Source of the DNA: Acidobacteriota bacterium
Lineage (GTDB): Bacteria > Acidobacteriota > Vicinamibacteria > Vicinamibacterales > CAVVIG01
NCBI GenBank assembly: GCA_003222395.1
Contig: QHWB01000039.1
Coordinates: forward strand, 186,001 to 250,000
DNA length: 64,000 nucleotides
Direction: 5' to 3'
In this document: positions 169-32,290 of the stretch, piece after piece
How positions within the stretch are numbered: position 1 is the first letter of the stretch
Layout: every line of letters starts with the position of its first letter
The notes under the pieces: model-generated
What the model saw: only the letters and a program-made list of their open reading frames with translations
Told to the model about the DNA's origin: nothing
Databases searched by the model: none
Program-made: the position numbers and the translations under genes

Positions 169-786
169 AGCTTCACCCCGCATGATTTGCAGAACGTCGC
201 GTCCGCGTCGTTCACGGTCGAACAATTCGCGCAGAGGCGCTCGGCTGAAGCCTCGCGCTCCCCTGCGATTCGCTCGGCTGAAAGCCTCGCGCTGCCTGTG
301 TCCGTCTGCATCTCGTTGTGCGAGCCGGCGCTTCCGCTGTCGTAGCGCGAGCCTTTCAGGCGAGCAGCGAGATCGCGTTCGATCTGATCGCGGTATCCCG
401 ACCCTGCGTCGAGTTGACGGAGGAGGCCCGCAGCGCGCATGCGCAGGCGGGTCGACATCTCCTGAAAGTCGGCTTCCGCCAGCTTGCCCATCGCGCGATC
501 GAACTCCAGCTCCTTGATCGCGCGCAGCGTGAGGTGCTTCTCGCGTTCGAGCGCGGCCCGCGTACGATGGCCGATCATCACCGTGCGATCCTCTTCGCTC
601 GAGACCAGCGGCCGTACCATCCGCAGCACCGCAATGCCGACCGCAGCCGTCGTGATCATGAGGATGCCGAGCAGGATGATGCTGACGATCCCCTGTCCCC
701 GCGCGAGGAACGTGACCGCGGTGGCGCAGCCGAGCGCCGCGAGGAGGAAGAATTGCCAGGTTTGAAGACCGCTGTCTTCTGCGCTC

Positions 787-4520: not shown

Positions 4521-5867
4521 ATGACGATGAAGCTCGCGACCGCTGCTGTAGTCGTTCCGCTTGCCACCATTATCACCGCAGCCGTGCTGACGAACCGTCT
4601 GCACGCCGAGCGCGGCGATGCCCGCCCGCCCCGCGCGCCGTTCGATCGCGTGATCGGCGAGCACGCGGAGGAGTTGTTCCGCAACGGCGCGACAATCTTC
4701 CGCTACGACACGTTCGGCGACGAAGCGTTCTGGGGCGGAACGCTGAAGCTGCATCAGGCAATTGCCGGCGCGCGATTTGGCGGCGTCGGACCCGGTGTGA
4801 GCCCCGCGACGGCGCTCGCGGTCGGGCTCAAGGTCGACGTGGACAACGTTCCCGCCGCGGTCCTCGATGGCATCCGCGCAGGGACCGTCGACCTCAACGA
4901 TCCGGCGAACACGATCGCGCTGCTCGACGCGAAGGCCGTCGTCGGCGTCAGCCTCCTCCGCGACGCCGCCGGCCGCGTGCAGTCGATGGGCGTGCAGTGC
5001 TCGCTGTGCCACTCGACCGTCGACGATTCGTTCGCGCCCGGCATCGGCCATCGCCTCGACGGCTGGACCAATCGCGACCTCAACGTCGGCGCGATCGTCG
5101 GGCTCTCGCCCGATCTCAGCGCAGTCGCCGGGTTGCTGCAGGTCGATCAGGCGACGGTGCGCACCGTGCTGAACAGTTGGGGACCCGGAAGGTTCGACGC
5201 GGCGTTGTTCCTGGACGGCAAAGCGTTCAGACCCGACGGCAAAACGGCCGCAACGCTCATCCCGCCGGCTTTTGGCCTCGCCGGAATGAATCAACACACG
5301 TTCACGGGCTGGGGCAGCGTGCCGTACTGGAACGCGTTCGTCGCGAATCTCGAGATGCACGGCTCCGGCACCTTCTTCGATCCGCGCCTCAGCGATCCGG
5401 TGCAATTCCCCGTGGCGGCGCGTGCGGGCTTCGGCGACGTCCGTCCGGCCGACGATCGCGTCACGTCGAAGCTTGCGGCGCTGCAGTTCTACCAGCTTTC
5501 GATTCCCTCGCCGGCGCCGCCGCAAGGCAGCTTCGACCCGGCGGCCGCAGCGCGAGGAGAACGGCTGTTCAACGGAGCAGCCCGCTGTTCGACGTGTCAC
5601 GTGCCGCCGCTCTTCAGCGAGCCGGGCTGGGCGATGCATACCGGAGCGGAGATCGGCATCGACGATTTCCAGGCGAATCGTGCGCCGGACCGGCGCTATC
5701 GCACGACGCCGCTGAAGGGCGCGTGGTCGCATCAGAAGGGCGGGTTCTACCACGACGGGCGCTTTGGCACGCTCGCCGACGTGGTGCGGCACTACGACGA
5801 GACGTTCGGCCTGCATCTGACGCCGTCGCACGTCAGCGATCTCGTCGAGTACTTGAAATCTCTGTAA
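4521..5867 (+). CDS. Secreted di-heme c-type cytochrome
   Basis: The 448-residue protein starts at an ATG preceded by GAGGAG. It has an N-terminal signal or anchor helix (residues 5-24). Two CxxCH heme-attachment motifs are visible: CSLCH at 160-164 and CSTCH at 356-360. The second lies in a domain ending GGFYHDGRFGTLADVVRHYD, which is typical of the cytochrome c peroxidase/MauG-like superfamily. A periplasmic electron-transfer or peroxidase-like role is inferred; the substrate is unknown. It is divergent from the ECF sigma gene and is a plausible client of the nearby Ccm cluster. Its 3' end overlaps the convergent maf gene by 35 bp. Confidence 0.85.
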   Translation: MTMKLATAAVVVPLATIITAAVLTNRLHAERGDARPPRAPFDRVIGEHAEELFRNGATIFRYDTFGDEAFWGGTLKLHQAIAGARFGGVGPGVSPATALAVGLKVDVDNVPAAVLDGIRAGTVDLNDPANTIALLDAKAVVGVSLLRDAAGRVQSMGVQCSLCHSTVDDSFAPGIGHRLDGWTNRDLNVGAIVGLSPDLSAVAGLLQVDQATVRTVLNSWGPGRFDAALFLDGKAFRPDGKTAATLIPPAFGLAGMNQHTFTGWGSVPYWNAFVANLEMHGSGTFFDPRLSDPVQFPVAARAGFGDVRPADDRVTSKLAALQFYQLSIPSPAPPQGSFDPAAAARGERLFNGAARCSTCHVPPLFSEPGWAMHTGAEIGIDDFQANRAPDRRYRTTPLKGAWSHQKGGFYHDGRFGTLADVVRHYDETFGLHLTPSHVSDLVEYLKSL

Positions 5868-6450
5868 TCAGCTCGCAGACGCACGCGACCGGCAGACCGA
5901 CAACGTTCGAGTACGATCCTTCGATACGCGGGATGAAGCGGGACGCGAGCCCCTGAATCGCATACGCGCCGGCTTTATCCCGCCCTTCCCCGCTTGCGAC
6001 GTACCACGCGACGTCCGCGTCGGTCAGCGCCGCGAAATGCACGGCGGTGATTTCGACGCGGCCGACTTCCGACGCTCCTTGCCGGACGCTGACGCCGGTC
6101 ATCACCTCGTGTCGCCGCCCCGAAAGACGGCGCAGCATCGCCGCCGCATCCGCATCGTCAACGGGTTTGCCAAGGATCTCGTCGTCGATGACGACGGTCG
6201 TGTCGGCGCCGAGGACCATGACCGGTGGCGCGGGGCTTTCAACCCCGCGATCGCGGCCCTGAAAGGGCCGCGCCACATCAATCATCGCGGCCGCTGATTT
6301 CTCTGCGGCCAGACGGCGCACGTAACTTCGTGGGGATTCGTCCGCACGAATCGATTCATCCACATCTGTCACGACTGTTTCGAAGTCAAAGCCGGCGGCG
6401 CGCAGCAGTTCCGCGCGGCGCGGTGATCCGGACGCGAGGATGATTCGCAC
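5833..6450 (-). CDS. maf: Maf-family nucleotide pyrophosphatase with an in-frame repeat insertion
   Basis: Maf proteins hydrolyse non-canonical or canonical nucleoside triphosphates to monophosphates and are thought to protect nucleotide pools. This 205-residue copy has the N-terminal LASGSPRR motif (residues 5-12), the central VLGADTTVV strand (79-87) and the C-terminal YAIQG...IEGSYSNVVGLP signature. It is longer than typical Maf because residues 59-76 (DVARPFQGRDRGVESPAP and neighbours) are encoded by a paired palindrome at 6225-6276. This insert sits just before the strand carrying the active-site Asp, where most Maf proteins have only a short loop. The frame is preserved and all catalytic motifs remain, so activity is likely. 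It is divergent from the DciA-like gene. Confidence 0.92.
   Translation of the reverse strand: MRIILASGSPRRAELLRAAGFDFETVVTDVDESIRADESPRSYVRRLAAEKSAAAMIDVARPFQGRDRGVESPAPPVMVLGADTTVVIDDEILGKPVDDADAAAMLRRLSGRRHEVMTGVSVRQGASEVGRVEITAVHFAALTDADVAWYVASGEGRDKAGAYAIQGLASRFIPRIEGSYSNVVGLPVACVCELITEISSTRRDR
6225..6276. repeat. REPIN-like paired palindrome inside maf
   Basis: Two head-to-head arms of about 25 bp each (6225-6249 and 6252-6276) are near reverse complements. Each is itself palindromic around GGGCTTTCAACCC or GGCCCTGAAAGGGCC. The outer edges read GTGGCGCGG and CCGCGCCAC. The same arm type recurs upstream of recA at 9479-9619. The element is wholly inside the maf coding sequence. Confidence 0.8.
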
Positions 6451-9478: not shown

Positions 9479-9619
9479 CTTCGCGGCCCTGAAAGGGCCG
9501 CGCCATCCGAACATGTCGAGTGGCGCGACCCTCACCCACGCCCGCATCAGACGTGTGGTGTTTGCCTTTCAGGCCCGCCCGCATCAGACATGTGGCGCGG
9601 GCCTTTCAGGCCCGCGAAG
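9479..9619. repeat. REPIN-like repeat cluster in the recA leader
   Basis: The outer arms at 9479-9505 and 9593-9619 are 27 nt long and reverse complementary at about 25 positions. Each arm is also internally palindromic around CCTGAAAGG or CCTTTCAGG. Inside lies a 37-bp tandem duplication (9541-9577 and 9578-9614) beginning CCCGCATCAGAC. The right arm ends 12 bp before the recA start, so the whole element lies in the predicted transcript leader. The arms match the copy inside maf. Confidence 0.8.
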
Positions 9620-10675: not shown

Positions 10676-13600
10676 CATCCGACCGGAGCGCGCGCCCTGA
10701 GCCGCGTCGAACGGCGAATGCTTCAGCCGAGCGTCACATCGTGGTCTGGCTGGCGCTCGGCTGCATCGCGCTCACCATCGTCTACGCTTACCCGCTGTCG
10801 GTTCACCCGGGCGACCATGTCATGTCGCTGGGAACCGACGCGAACCTGTACATCTGGACGCTCGCGTGGGATGTCCACGCGTTGGTCCATCGGCCGCTCT
10901 CGATCTTCGAGTCCAACATTTTCTATCCGCTGCACCATACGCTCGCCTATTCCGAGAACCTGATCGGCAGCGCGTTATTCGCGGCGCCGGTGCTGTGGCT
11001 GACCGGCAACCCGGTGCTCGCCATGAACGTCGCGGCGCTCGTCACCGCACCGCTGTGCGCGCTCGGCGCGTACGTGCTCGCACGCGCCGTCGGCGTCAGC
11101 GTGGCCGGTGCGGTGCTCGCGGCGATGATTTACGGTTTCTCGCCGGCGCGCTTCTTCCGGCTGGATCAGCTCCACCTCACGAACGTCCAGTGGATACCCT
11201 TCTCTGTCGCCTTCGCGCATCGGTACCTCGATCGTCGCCAGCCGCGCGATCTGCGACTCGCGATCGCGTTCTTCACGCTCCAGGCGCTGACGAGCGGCCA
11301 CGGCGCGGTCTTTCTGGCGATCGTCCTCGCGGCGTTGATCGTGTACCACATGGTCCTCGGCGAGCCGGCCGCGCCCATCGAACGCCTTCGCGACGCCGGG
11401 ATCGTCGGCGCGCTGCTCCTTGCGCCGGCAATCCTGGTTGTTCTGCCCTATCGCGTCGTGCAGGTCGAGATGGGACTGCGCCGGACGCTGGAGAACTGGC
11501 ATGTGTCGTGGACCAGCTTCCTCGCATCGCCCTCGCACGTGCAGCAGTACCTGGTTGCGCGGTTCATGCCGTCCGCACGAGTGTACGAAACGGCGACCGC
11601 TTATCTCTTCCCCGGCTACATACCGTTGATGCTGGGCGCCGTCGGCATCGTTTGGCGCGTCGAGCGCGGCATCGCGCGGCGCCGCGCGGCGCTCGCGCTG
11701 AACGTGGTCATCGTTCTCGCGCTCGCCGTCGCGGTGTACGCGACGGCGACGAACGACGCGAGGGTCCGCGTCGGCACGATCGTCATTCTATCGGCGCGTC
11801 AGGCGTGGCGCGCGTGGCTATGGGTTGCCGTCGCGCTGGCGATGCGAATCGCGATCGCGTCACGCGTACCGCTTCTCTCTCGCCCGCGGTTCCCGCGCGG
11901 CGACGCCGCGACGTTCTACACGCTGATGTTCGTTCTGAGCGTGTGGCTGTCGATGGGGCCGCCGTTTGGCGCGTGGCAGTTCATCTACTGGCTGCCTGGA
12001 TTGAATTTCATCCGCGCGCCGTCGCGGTTCATGATCCTCGGTATCCTTGCGCTCGCCGTGGTGGCCGCGCACGGATTCGACCGGTTGACCGCGCGGCTTT
12101 CAGCCCGCCAGCGATCGGCGGCGGCCGCGTCCGTCGCGGCCGTTATGGCGATCGAATTCGCCGGCATGCCGCTCGACATCGCGGCGCAATCCGTGCGGCT
12201 GCCGGCCGTCGATCGGTGGCTCGCCACTCGTCCGCCACCTTTCGCCGTCGCGGAAGTCCCCGTCGCCGATTCGAAGAACGTCACCGTTCGCGAAGAGCGG
12301 CAGTCGATCTACATGCTGCACTCGATGGCGCATTGGCAGAAGACCATCCACGGCTACAGCGGCCTGCTGCCCAACTTCTCCGACAACCTGTACTGGCAGC
12401 TCACGACGTTTCCGGATGCGACCAGCATCCACGCGCTCAGCGAGATTGGCGTCACTTACGTCGTCGTGCACGAGGATCTGTATGCTCCGGGCGAGTGGCC
12501 CGACGTCGAGCGGCGCCTCGCCCGCTTCCCGGAGCTGACGCTCGAGCACACGGAGACGGGCGGCCGTGTGTATTCGTTGCCTAACGCGCGTTTCAACCTT
12601 TCCAGCGGCCGACCCGTCGAAGGCGGCATGCGAACACTTGCTGCTGCCGCTATCGTTCTGCAAACCGCCGGTGCCGGCGCCCAGACCGCCGACATCCACG
12701 GCACCTGGACGGCCGAGCTTCGAAATAACAAGGTTTTCCTCCAGGTTCAGGCAACGCAACCTGACGACTGGAACCGCAACAACGACTGGCGAGGCGGCTG
12801 GAACATGGGCCAAAGTCTCCCGGTCGACGAGCTGTCGGGGCTGCCGGGAAACGACGAGCGCTTTACGGCCGCCAGCGTGAAGTTCGAGCTCCGGCGCGAA
12901 GGGGGCACGCTCGGCTTCGAAGGCTCGTTCCGCGACGGGCGGGGCGCCGGGCTGTTTACCTTTGCGCCGCGCCGCGAATACATCGCCGAGATGCGCCGCC
13001 TCGGATACAACGACGACATCCCGCTCTGGCGTCAATTTCAGCTCACCGTCCACGACGTCGGACCGCGCTACATCGCCGCGCTGAAGGCGGAAGGTTACGA
13101 CAAGCTGTCGCTCGATCAGATCCAGCGCTCGAAGAACCACGGCGTGACGATCGACTACATCAAGGCGATGAAGGCCGAAGGCTTCAAGGCGGCGACGCTC
13201 GAGGAGCTGGTGCGCACGCGCGATCACGGCGTCACGCCGACCTACATCCAGGACATGCGCAAAGCGGGCTTCGGGAATGTCGCCATCGAAGATCTGGTTC
13301 GATCGAGAGACCACGGGGTGAGTCCAGAATTCGTGCAGGAGATCCGGCGCCTCGGACTGACCGCCTCGACGATCGATCAGTTCGTGCGGCTGCGCGATCA
13401 CGGCGTCACGGCGCAATTCGTCAACGAGCTGAAAAGCGCCGGCTACGACAGGCTCGCGACCGAGGATCTCGTGCGCGTGCGCGACCACGGCGTCAACGCG
13501 GCTTTCATCCGCGAGCTCGGCGCGCAGGGCTTCAAGAACCTGCCAATCGACGATGTGGTCCGCGCGAAGGATCACGGCGTCAGCGCCGACTACCTCGCGG

Positions 13601-13764
13601 ACATGAAGTCGCTTCTGAAGGATCTATCGCTGACGCAGGTCGTGCGGATGCGCGACCACGGCGTCACGCCCGGCTTCATCAATCACGCGCGGGCGCGCGG
13701 CTTCACGACGACCGATCCCGAGGAGCTCGTGCGTCTGAAAGATCGCGGTCTCTGGAAAAACTGA
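10672..13764 (+). CDS. Multipass glycosyltransferase-like membrane protein in one frame with a secreted repeat protein
   Basis: A single frame of 1,030 codons runs from a GTG overlapping the recA stop to 13,764. Residues 1 to about 640 look like a complete polytopic membrane protein of the GT-C/ArnT-like kind. They have roughly ten hydrophobic helices, an early loop with acidic residues ([16 protein letters not shown]) and a soluble C-terminal domain ([20 protein letters not shown]) ending near VYSLP. Without a stop codon the frame continues through a linker ([15 protein letters not shown]) into a second protein with its own signal peptide at 12,628. This is either a real fusion or two genes whose separating stop was lost. 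The sugar donor and acceptor are unknown. The N-terminus (ANASAER) again resembles REP-encoded peptide. Confidence 0.7.
12628..13764 (+). CDS. Possible separate start: secreted protein with eight 29-residue repeats
   Basis: An ATG at 12,628, four bases after GAAGGCG, begins [20 protein letters not shown], a good signal peptide, so this may be translated separately from the upstream membrane-protein frame. The mature part (about residues 22-130) is a beta-rich domain starting [10 protein letters not shown]. From about residue 150 come tandem repeats of 29 residues with consensus HGVTPxYIxxMKxxGFxxxxxEDLVRxRD. Seven are clear and one at the N-side is degenerate. Similar helical repeats occur in acidobacterial BlaR1-like and envelope proteins; their ligand is unknown. 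Annotators may report only the long fused frame, so this entry marks an alternative product and not an additional gene. Confidence 0.5.
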   Translation: MRTLAAAAIVLQTAGAGAQTADIHGTWTAELRNNKVFLQVQATQPDDWNRNNDWRGGWNMGQSLPVDELSGLPGNDERFTAASVKFELRREGGTLGFEGSFRDGRGAGLFTFAPRREYIAEMRRLGYNDDIPLWRQFQLTVHDVGPRYIAALKAEGYDKLSLDQIQRSKNHGVTIDYIKAMKAEGFKAATLEELVRTRDHGVTPTYIQDMRKAGFGNVAIEDLVRSRDHGVSPEFVQEIRRLGLTASTIDQFVRLRDHGVTAQFVNELKSAGYDRLATEDLVRVRDHGVNAAFIRELGAQGFKNLPIDDVVRAKDHGVSADYLADMKSLLKDLSLTQVVRMRDHGVTPGFINHARARGFTTTDPEELVRLKDRGLWKN

Positions 13765-28083: not shown

Positions 28084-28189
28084 CTGCCGACGCTCCGATA
28101 ATCGCCCGGGGATGGAAGCGGCGCCAACGGAGGGAAGGATTGAGCTGCGCCACCGCTTCCGTAAAATGAGTCTTCGGAGCGTCGGTTCG
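28084..28189 (+). repeat. Long imperfect hairpin repeat, copy A
   Basis: The outer arms CTGCCGACGCTCCG and CGGAGCGTCGGTT are complementary. Between them a GGAAGCGG arm pairs with CCGCTTCC. The copy at 32,120-32,254 is about 30 bp longer and shares the sequence GGAGGGAAGGATTGA and both outer arms. Copy A lies just beyond the truncated end of the permease pseudogene at 28,211. With the 50-bp repeat it fills the 316-bp gap after the lipoprotein hydrolase. Confidence 0.65.
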
Positions 28190-28210
28190 GAGCTTTTCGT
28201 TAAGCGCGGG

Positions 28211-32119: not shown

Positions 32120-32254
32120 CTGCCGACGCTCCGCTAACAGCAAGGAACGGAAGCGGCTGGCGCAGGTCAATCCCGCGAAGCGCCGACGGGACGGAGGGAA
32201 GGATTGACCTGCGCCAACGCTTCCGCAAAATAATCCTTCGGAGCGTCGGTTGAG
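32120..32254 (+). repeat. Long imperfect hairpin repeat, copy B
   Basis: The outer arms CTGCCGACGCTCCG and CGGAGCGTCGGTT enclose a second, longer stem. GGAAGCGG and GGCGCAGGTCAATCC pair with GGATTGACCTGCGCC and CGCTTCC. It lies 75 bp after the intact permease and has the same orientation as copy A at 28,084-28,189, so the two copies flank the permease pair. Confidence 0.7.
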
Positions 32255-32290
32255 AATCGTTCGCTAGGCTCGAGATGCCCTCGAAAGGGA

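Follow-up and report, generated by a model that had tools for sequence, protein, structure and literature searches.

The window, i.e. the whole 64-kb stretch of DNA analysed here, is part of a genome of 7.74 Mb in 118 contigs (G000) and contains a gene coding for a Maf-family protein (PF02545, 1.8e-59 in a Pfam scan), inside which there lies a 52-bp REPIN (Table 1). The position claimed for this palindrome in an earlier note on this DNA proved to be exact, and a repeat scan of the window also recovered it as an inverted repeat. Its two arms deviate from the REP consensus by three and two mismatches, respectively, and its GTGG heads point outward, conserved heads at the outer ends being a feature of REPINs. 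As single-stranded DNA the element is predicted to adopt a structure in which an outer stem bears two hairpins (z = -5.24), and none of 200 shuffled sequences was equally stable, so that both the two inverted REPs and the stable single-strand hairpin of REPINs are present in the maf element. The minus-strand maf frame is open throughout, in line with the claim of an insertion without frame break. The element encodes VARPFQGRDRGVESPAP, that is 17 residues plus one base corresponding to Maf residues 59-75; the about 18 residues given earlier included a leading D that belongs to the flank, and compared to the commonest loop length of 13 residues the net increase is 15.

Table 1. Features at maf and elsewhere in the window (positions counted from the first letter of the window).
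Feature	Position	Strand	Basis
REPIN, 52 bp, two inverted REPs, GTGG heads outward	6225..6276		pattern search and ssDNA fold
REP arm 1, GTGGCGCGGGGCTTTCAACCCCGC	6225..6248	+	REP consensus match
Spacer GATC, 4 nt	6249..6252		sequence
REP arm 2, GTGGCGCGGCCCTTTCAGGGCCGC	6253..6276	-	REP consensus match
maf, Maf-family nucleotide pyrophosphatase	5833..6450	-	ORF, PF02545 and model/PDB match
REP upstream of recA	9483..9506	-	consensus match
REP upstream of recA, identical to the consensus used	9592..9615	+	consensus match
GTAG-type REP, 24-nt sequence identical to the REPs flanking the RAYT gene	342..365	+	consensus match

Five REP sites with up to three mismatches are found in the window, compared to a mean of 0.01 in 100 shuffled versions. 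The REPs which the earlier note had placed upstream of recA are indeed there, the identity of recA having been read by eye from the sequence; like the site at 342-365, they are members of the REP family to which the maf element belongs. The window also holds a 64-nt unit that occurs seven times at 13109-13691, mostly 87 nt apart and with a recurring DHGV-like motif, inside an ORF at 10741-13764, as well as an 82-nt direct repeat (28127-28208 and 32191-32272) with 82% identity between the two copies, which are 4 kb apart.

The many dispersed copies that characterise REPINs are likewise present. At up to three mismatches, a search of the whole genome with the arms returned 20 heads-out doublets of 52 bp, versus none for the reversed pattern, and 690 REP-half sites (358 + 332), versus 11 (6 + 5) in the reversed-pattern control. 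The single Y1_Tnp gene found in the genome, at locus L009, codes for a RAYT according to its match with NF047646 (NCBIfam REP-associated tyrosine transposase; 100.4 bits, cut-off 80) and lies between GTAG REPs that share one 24-nt sequence. A REP-flanked RAYT thus resides in the same genome, its flanking REPs being of a related subtype (GTAG, GCGAGC) unlike the GTGG/GATC subtype in maf. Directly 5' of the RAYT gene, at about 890-1405 of L009 on contig C106, GTAG REPs form a tandem array whose repeat unit measures about 37 nt and includes GTGGATATCACCG. In 9 of the 27 genomes of the family, all represented by incomplete assemblies, a Y1_Tnp match is absent, including the REP-bearing G006 and G012. 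The heads of the doublets are GTGG in G000, and mostly GTAG in the related genomes G009, G017, G024 and G026.

The location of these copies with respect to genes was called by a home-made coding score, trained on 800 kb of G000, that yields false negatives: it overlooked maf, and a copy within a gene for a sirohaem-synthase-type NAD-binding (CysG-type) protein in G017 was scored merely as "weak". Twelve of the 20 doublets of G000 lie inside genes (11 by score, plus maf), which agrees with the earlier suggestion that this type of element can live in genes. For random positions the score-based figures, in which misses of the maf type are included, were 259 of 361 near the same loci and 663 of 1000 in an 800-kb sample, where REP clusters were genic in 7 of 50 cases by score (8 with maf) and heads-in REP pairs in none of 11. 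Fisher's exact test separates the doublets from the heads-in pairs (12/20 vs 0/11, p = 0.0014) and gives p = 0.63 for the comparison with the 1000 random positions. The GTGG/GATC doublets of G000 do not avoid genes, unlike most REP clusters of the same genome. They also differ from the doublets of G009 (12/20 vs 0/18, p = 5e-5), of which there are 40 in total; of the 20 considered, 18 were examined, those near contig ends on C57 and C94 being skipped, and none was genic and one weak, compared to 193 of 309 random positions. A 54-bp element in MutS of G009, which is genic, is outside these 18. Elsewhere, genic doublets amount to 1/5 in G017 (in addition to the CysG copy), 2/2 in G026, 1/2 in G024, 0/2 examined out of five in G006, 0/2 in G010 and 0/1 in G016, and clusters of another repeat, GTCCGGCT, in G014 were genic in 12 of 63 cases vs 393 of 600 random positions. 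A general preference of REPs for genes is ruled out, since the clusters of G000 and G014 and the doublets of G009 avoid them. An extragenic location therefore applies to the REP clusters of G000 generally and not to its 52-bp doublets; in PMC3733652, where intragenic GTAG REPs are reported, such a location is accordingly not taken as a defining feature. Two more copies of G000, at C30:170659 and C47:90470, look genic by eye, just behind apparent signal peptides, and are not counted amongst the 12.

The lack of gene avoidance might be a relic: the GTGG/GATC subfamily could be old and inactive, its intergenic copies having decayed or been deleted, with genic copies persisting as deletions there must keep the frame. 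The REPs on either side of the only RAYT found in the genome are of another subtype, which would fit such a history, as would the genic share of the doublets, which is 5/6 at no mismatch to the pattern, 3/5 at one and 4/9 at two or three mismatches. However, several genic copies are near-perfect palindromes, and protein constraint alone should permit synonymous changes that break the pairing. This scenario, which is compatible with the identity of the element as a REPIN, has a real chance of being correct, if the smaller one.

The genic copies share a reading frame, as 11 of the 12 are read in the phase in which GTG forms a codon. When both strands of the 20 elements are considered (n = 40), 39 readings are open in phase 0, 37 in phase 2 and two in phase 1, so that for GTGG copies, with two open phases, the bias is associated with a one-sided p of 0.003. 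The two GTAG-headed doublets tested are open in phase 0 only; hence the frame bias is informative solely for GTGG copies, and if the heads were GTAG at the time of insertion, phase 0 would have been the sole open frame, which would make the bias inevitable.

A search of 100 genomes gave a Maf match in 88, G000 included, and the Maf loop, defined as the segment between RLA..K and GADT, could be parsed automatically in 82 of these; of the six unparsed rows four were read by eye, two of them (G008 and G025) joining the 23 family genomes. The alignment of the Maf orthologues comprises loops with as well as loops without the element. Of the 61 parsed genomes outside the family, 58 have a loop of 12-16 residues, the exceptions being G042 (37 residues), G044 (17) and G090 (28). 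The idea that the residues are ancestral, for which the same residues encoded by unrelated DNA would have to recur throughout the phylum, is thereby ruled out, such a pattern not being seen among the 88 matched genomes. The loop of G000 has 28 residues, and inside the family the length ranges from 13 to 78 residues, with at least 18 in 13 of the 23 genomes.

Several of these long loops contain REPs. In G026, which belongs to another genus, a full 52-bp REPIN with GTAG ends sits at the same Maf offset as in G000; the two elements are identical at 46 of 52 bases, and four of the six differences make up two compensatory pairs. REPs of two other families occupy the loop in three further genera, namely the GTCCGGCT repeat in G014 and G023 (595 and 528 sites genome-wide, control 0) and the GTAGCGCAGGCC repeat in G025 (81 sites, control 1). 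In the Maf loops of G026, G014, G023 and G025 a REP is matched with at most two mismatches, while none of 200 shuffled loops was as good, the shuffles keeping base composition only and the CysG loops of G000 and G017 being excluded from them. A REP at this threshold is thus present in the Maf loop of 5 of the 23 parsed family genomes, G000 included. Amongst the other eight long loops, G016 and G024 have one 4-mismatch match each, and the pattern test gave no REP match in G004, G010, G011, G015, G017 and G020. By eye, the loop of G024 (with its 4-mismatch match) keeps both REPIN ends with other sequence between them, and that of G017, where the pattern test found no match, apparently has both ends with the middle gone. 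The existence of long loops without a recognisable REP (G004, G011, G015, G020 and others) indicates that Maf loops also grow in other ways.

Two observations on these repeats may be added. The Maf loop of G010 (L037) has a repeated AAPHARELF segment together with a GTAG hairpin that again differs in sequence, GTAGGGCCCCGC. In contigs of G014 (e.g. C107:26121-26214) the GTCCGGCT repeat occurs in frame inside long ORFs, up to three in a row, where it is translated as VRLKPDTT, VVSGFSRT or GPAKAGHYV.

An AlphaFold2 model of Maf, based on 23 sequences, has a mean pLDDT of 91.4, with an average of 55 for residues 61-70, located between a helix (40-60) and a strand (77-88), and it matches solved Maf structures (4p0u_B, TM 0.88/0.95). 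According to this model and the PDB match, the insert is predicted to form a flexible loop that leaves the fold intact.

A Pfam scan of the hosts of the G000 copies, comprising ten proteins including Maf and then three more, revealed besides the CysG-type protein a prolyl oligopeptidase, an Lhr-type helicase, MutS, spermidine-synthase-type proteins, a radical SAM protein, a PMT_2 protein, TPR proteins, and a class I tRNA synthetase catalytic domain, which from its cysteine motif and length we take to be GluQRS. Beyond Maf, the comparison of orthologues within the family covered MutS (26 genomes matched, 24 taken, 22 loops parsed), the CysG-type protein (25 matched, 22 taken, 21 parsed, with a shifted anchor that lengthened the loop in G021 and G014) and GluQRS (27 matched, 16 taken, the others being partial or lower-scoring hits, many of them probably other class I synthetases, and 14 parsed). 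A REP with at most two mismatches was found in the corresponding loop of MutS in 2 of 22 genomes (G000, G009), of the CysG-type protein in 3 of 21 (G000, G017, G026) and of GluQRS in 3 of 14 (G000, G005, G020), so that each of the four hosts, which are a non-random choice, has at least one other genus with a REP in the same loop. For MutS, the loops of G010, G025 and G012 additionally match at four mismatches, and in six genomes the loop is six residues long. In the CysG-type genes of G000 and G017 the element occupies the same offset but is inverted in one relative to the other; the copies agree at 51 of 52 bases after flipping and at 43 of 52 without it, and the 60-nt flanks next to them at 40 and 35 of 60 positions. 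Compared to the shortest or commonest loop, the net change in length is +15 residues in Maf, +19 in MutS, +16 in the CysG-type protein and +10 in GluQRS; no single insertion length fits all, and inspection of the flanks by eye revealed neither a target duplication nor a fixed insertion length. In G009, which is of another genus, the corresponding loop of GluQRS (L418) carries a tandem IQDR/IQDQ expansion, which means that this loop tolerates growth other than by REPs, too.

The shared positions raise the question of how often the loops were hit. According to a phylogeny based on three genes with the loops masked, G000, G017, G025, G024, G016, G026, G005, G010, G009 and G020 form a clade (for its node there is no support value) in which G000 branches first, with a support of 78 for the rest; as the family members G001 and G018 fall weakly supported among the outgroups, the deep part of this tree is unreliable. 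It is conceivable that one old insertion in an ancestor of several genera was since refreshed by gene conversion, which would account for the Maf offset common to G000 and G026 and the compensatory differences between their elements, as well as for the CysG copies being so much more alike than their flanks. However, G016, the sister of G026 (support 100), has a different Maf loop of 36 residues, and the presence of other REP families in the loop is left unexplained. A single refreshed insertion, which again would be compatible with REPIN identity, is on balance somewhat doubtful; for Maf itself, both one old insertion followed by replacement and several insertions are possible.

A selected function inside maf, for instance translational control through an mRNA hairpin or a role as protein-binding site, would explain why the pairing survives the substitutions that separate G000 from G026, yet the host genes are unrelated and many orthologues do without the element, which makes such a function quite improbable. 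That a hypervariable loop, the Maf and GluQRS loops indeed carrying non-REP expansions as well, gave rise to a GC-rich, palindrome-like stretch by chance has a negligible probability and is ruled out as an origin of the palindrome by the repeat counts and shuffles described above.

In our opinion, the observations are best explained by a REPIN that was inserted in trans by a RAYT into a tolerant loop of Maf, the loops of related genera having been hit likewise, and we would put the probability of this overall explanation at about 85%. The element would then be a non-autonomous miniature element of two REP hairpins, most likely copied and inserted as single-stranded DNA by an HUH tyrosine transposase, for which the RAYT encoded at L009 is the candidate. 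One copy would have entered the codons of the Maf loop, between the helix and the strand with the GADT motif, and may have survived there, as we propose, because its usable frames are free of stops, the length finally reached is divisible by three and the loop is tolerant. The resulting peptide, flexible, charged and rich in proline and glycine, is probably tolerated with near-neutral effect, and the persistence of such copies would be due to selection and not to targeted insertion. The corresponding loops of Maf, MutS, the CysG-type protein and GluQRS in related genera would also have received REPs, some of them of other families. The nearest genomes compared belong to other genera, which blurs the insertion junctions, and neither a transposition event nor an empty site within one species was encountered. 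Since some relatives have palindromic repeats of other kinds at this position, the same protein loops seem to be extended time and again by short mobile DNA. Of the earlier description as a mobile REPIN-type element, the type and the residence in genes are thus borne out by the data, and mobility is inferred.

A bolder extension of the RAYT-mediated insertion is that the GTGG/GATC subfamily is a gene-dwelling specialist, a mobile cassette for a 17-residue peptide in one frame, and that loops of housekeeping proteins (Maf, MutS, CysG-type, GluQRS) are standing landing pads that are entered by REP families of different genera and, on the time scale of genera, replaced, flipped and converted in situ; as it stands, we consider this speculative and unlikely to hold in full. 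Short mobile DNA that repeatedly extends the same loops of conserved enzymes would offer a simple natural route to variation in protein length, and the genome shows a REPIN subfamily without gene avoidance beside REP classes that do avoid genes. As in-frame copies occur in genes of known fold and element-free orthologues exist in other genera, tolerance and function of the inserts are directly testable.

With respect to known systems, REPINs were defined, with an analysis of extragenic space, in PMC3116915. REPs inside genes of several species, many of them repair genes, are reported in PMC3733652, including REPs at about the same site of recB in two Xanthomonas, to which the copies described here are alike; intragenic REPs as such are therefore a known phenomenon, and the element belongs to a known kind. 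Acidobacteriota genomes with REP predictions are listed in PMC12306157, and "palindromic" occurs once in PMC11778308, with reference to CRISPR. No other report of REPs inside genes of Acidobacteriota was found among the matches listed in open-licence literature; the parts that we did not find described are the phylum, the lack of gene avoidance of this subfamily and the fact that the same loops are used repeatedly.

The element resembles the GTAG REPINs and RAYTs of PMC3116915 and PMC3733652 in its inverted REP doublet, its high copy number and the REP-flanked RAYT, and differs from known GTAG REPINs by its GTGG heads, the 4-nt spacer and doublets that do not avoid genes. Its host belongs to the Acidobacteriota, for which a transposase group with terminal inverted repeats is named in PMC3733652. 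The parallel drawn earlier with Rickettsia palindromic elements, which are covered in PMC10969869, holds for the effect, i.e. a palindromic repeat in frame in unrelated or conserved ORFs that yields a recurring peptide, and not for membership in the same family, and given PMC3733652 a different phylum alone does not make a new kind. The Rickettsia elements measure about 150 bp (PMC10969869) and those of R. conorii have CGTC ends, CGTC repeats being without transposase association (PMC3733652), whereas the elements described here are 52 bp long with GTGG or GTAG ends.
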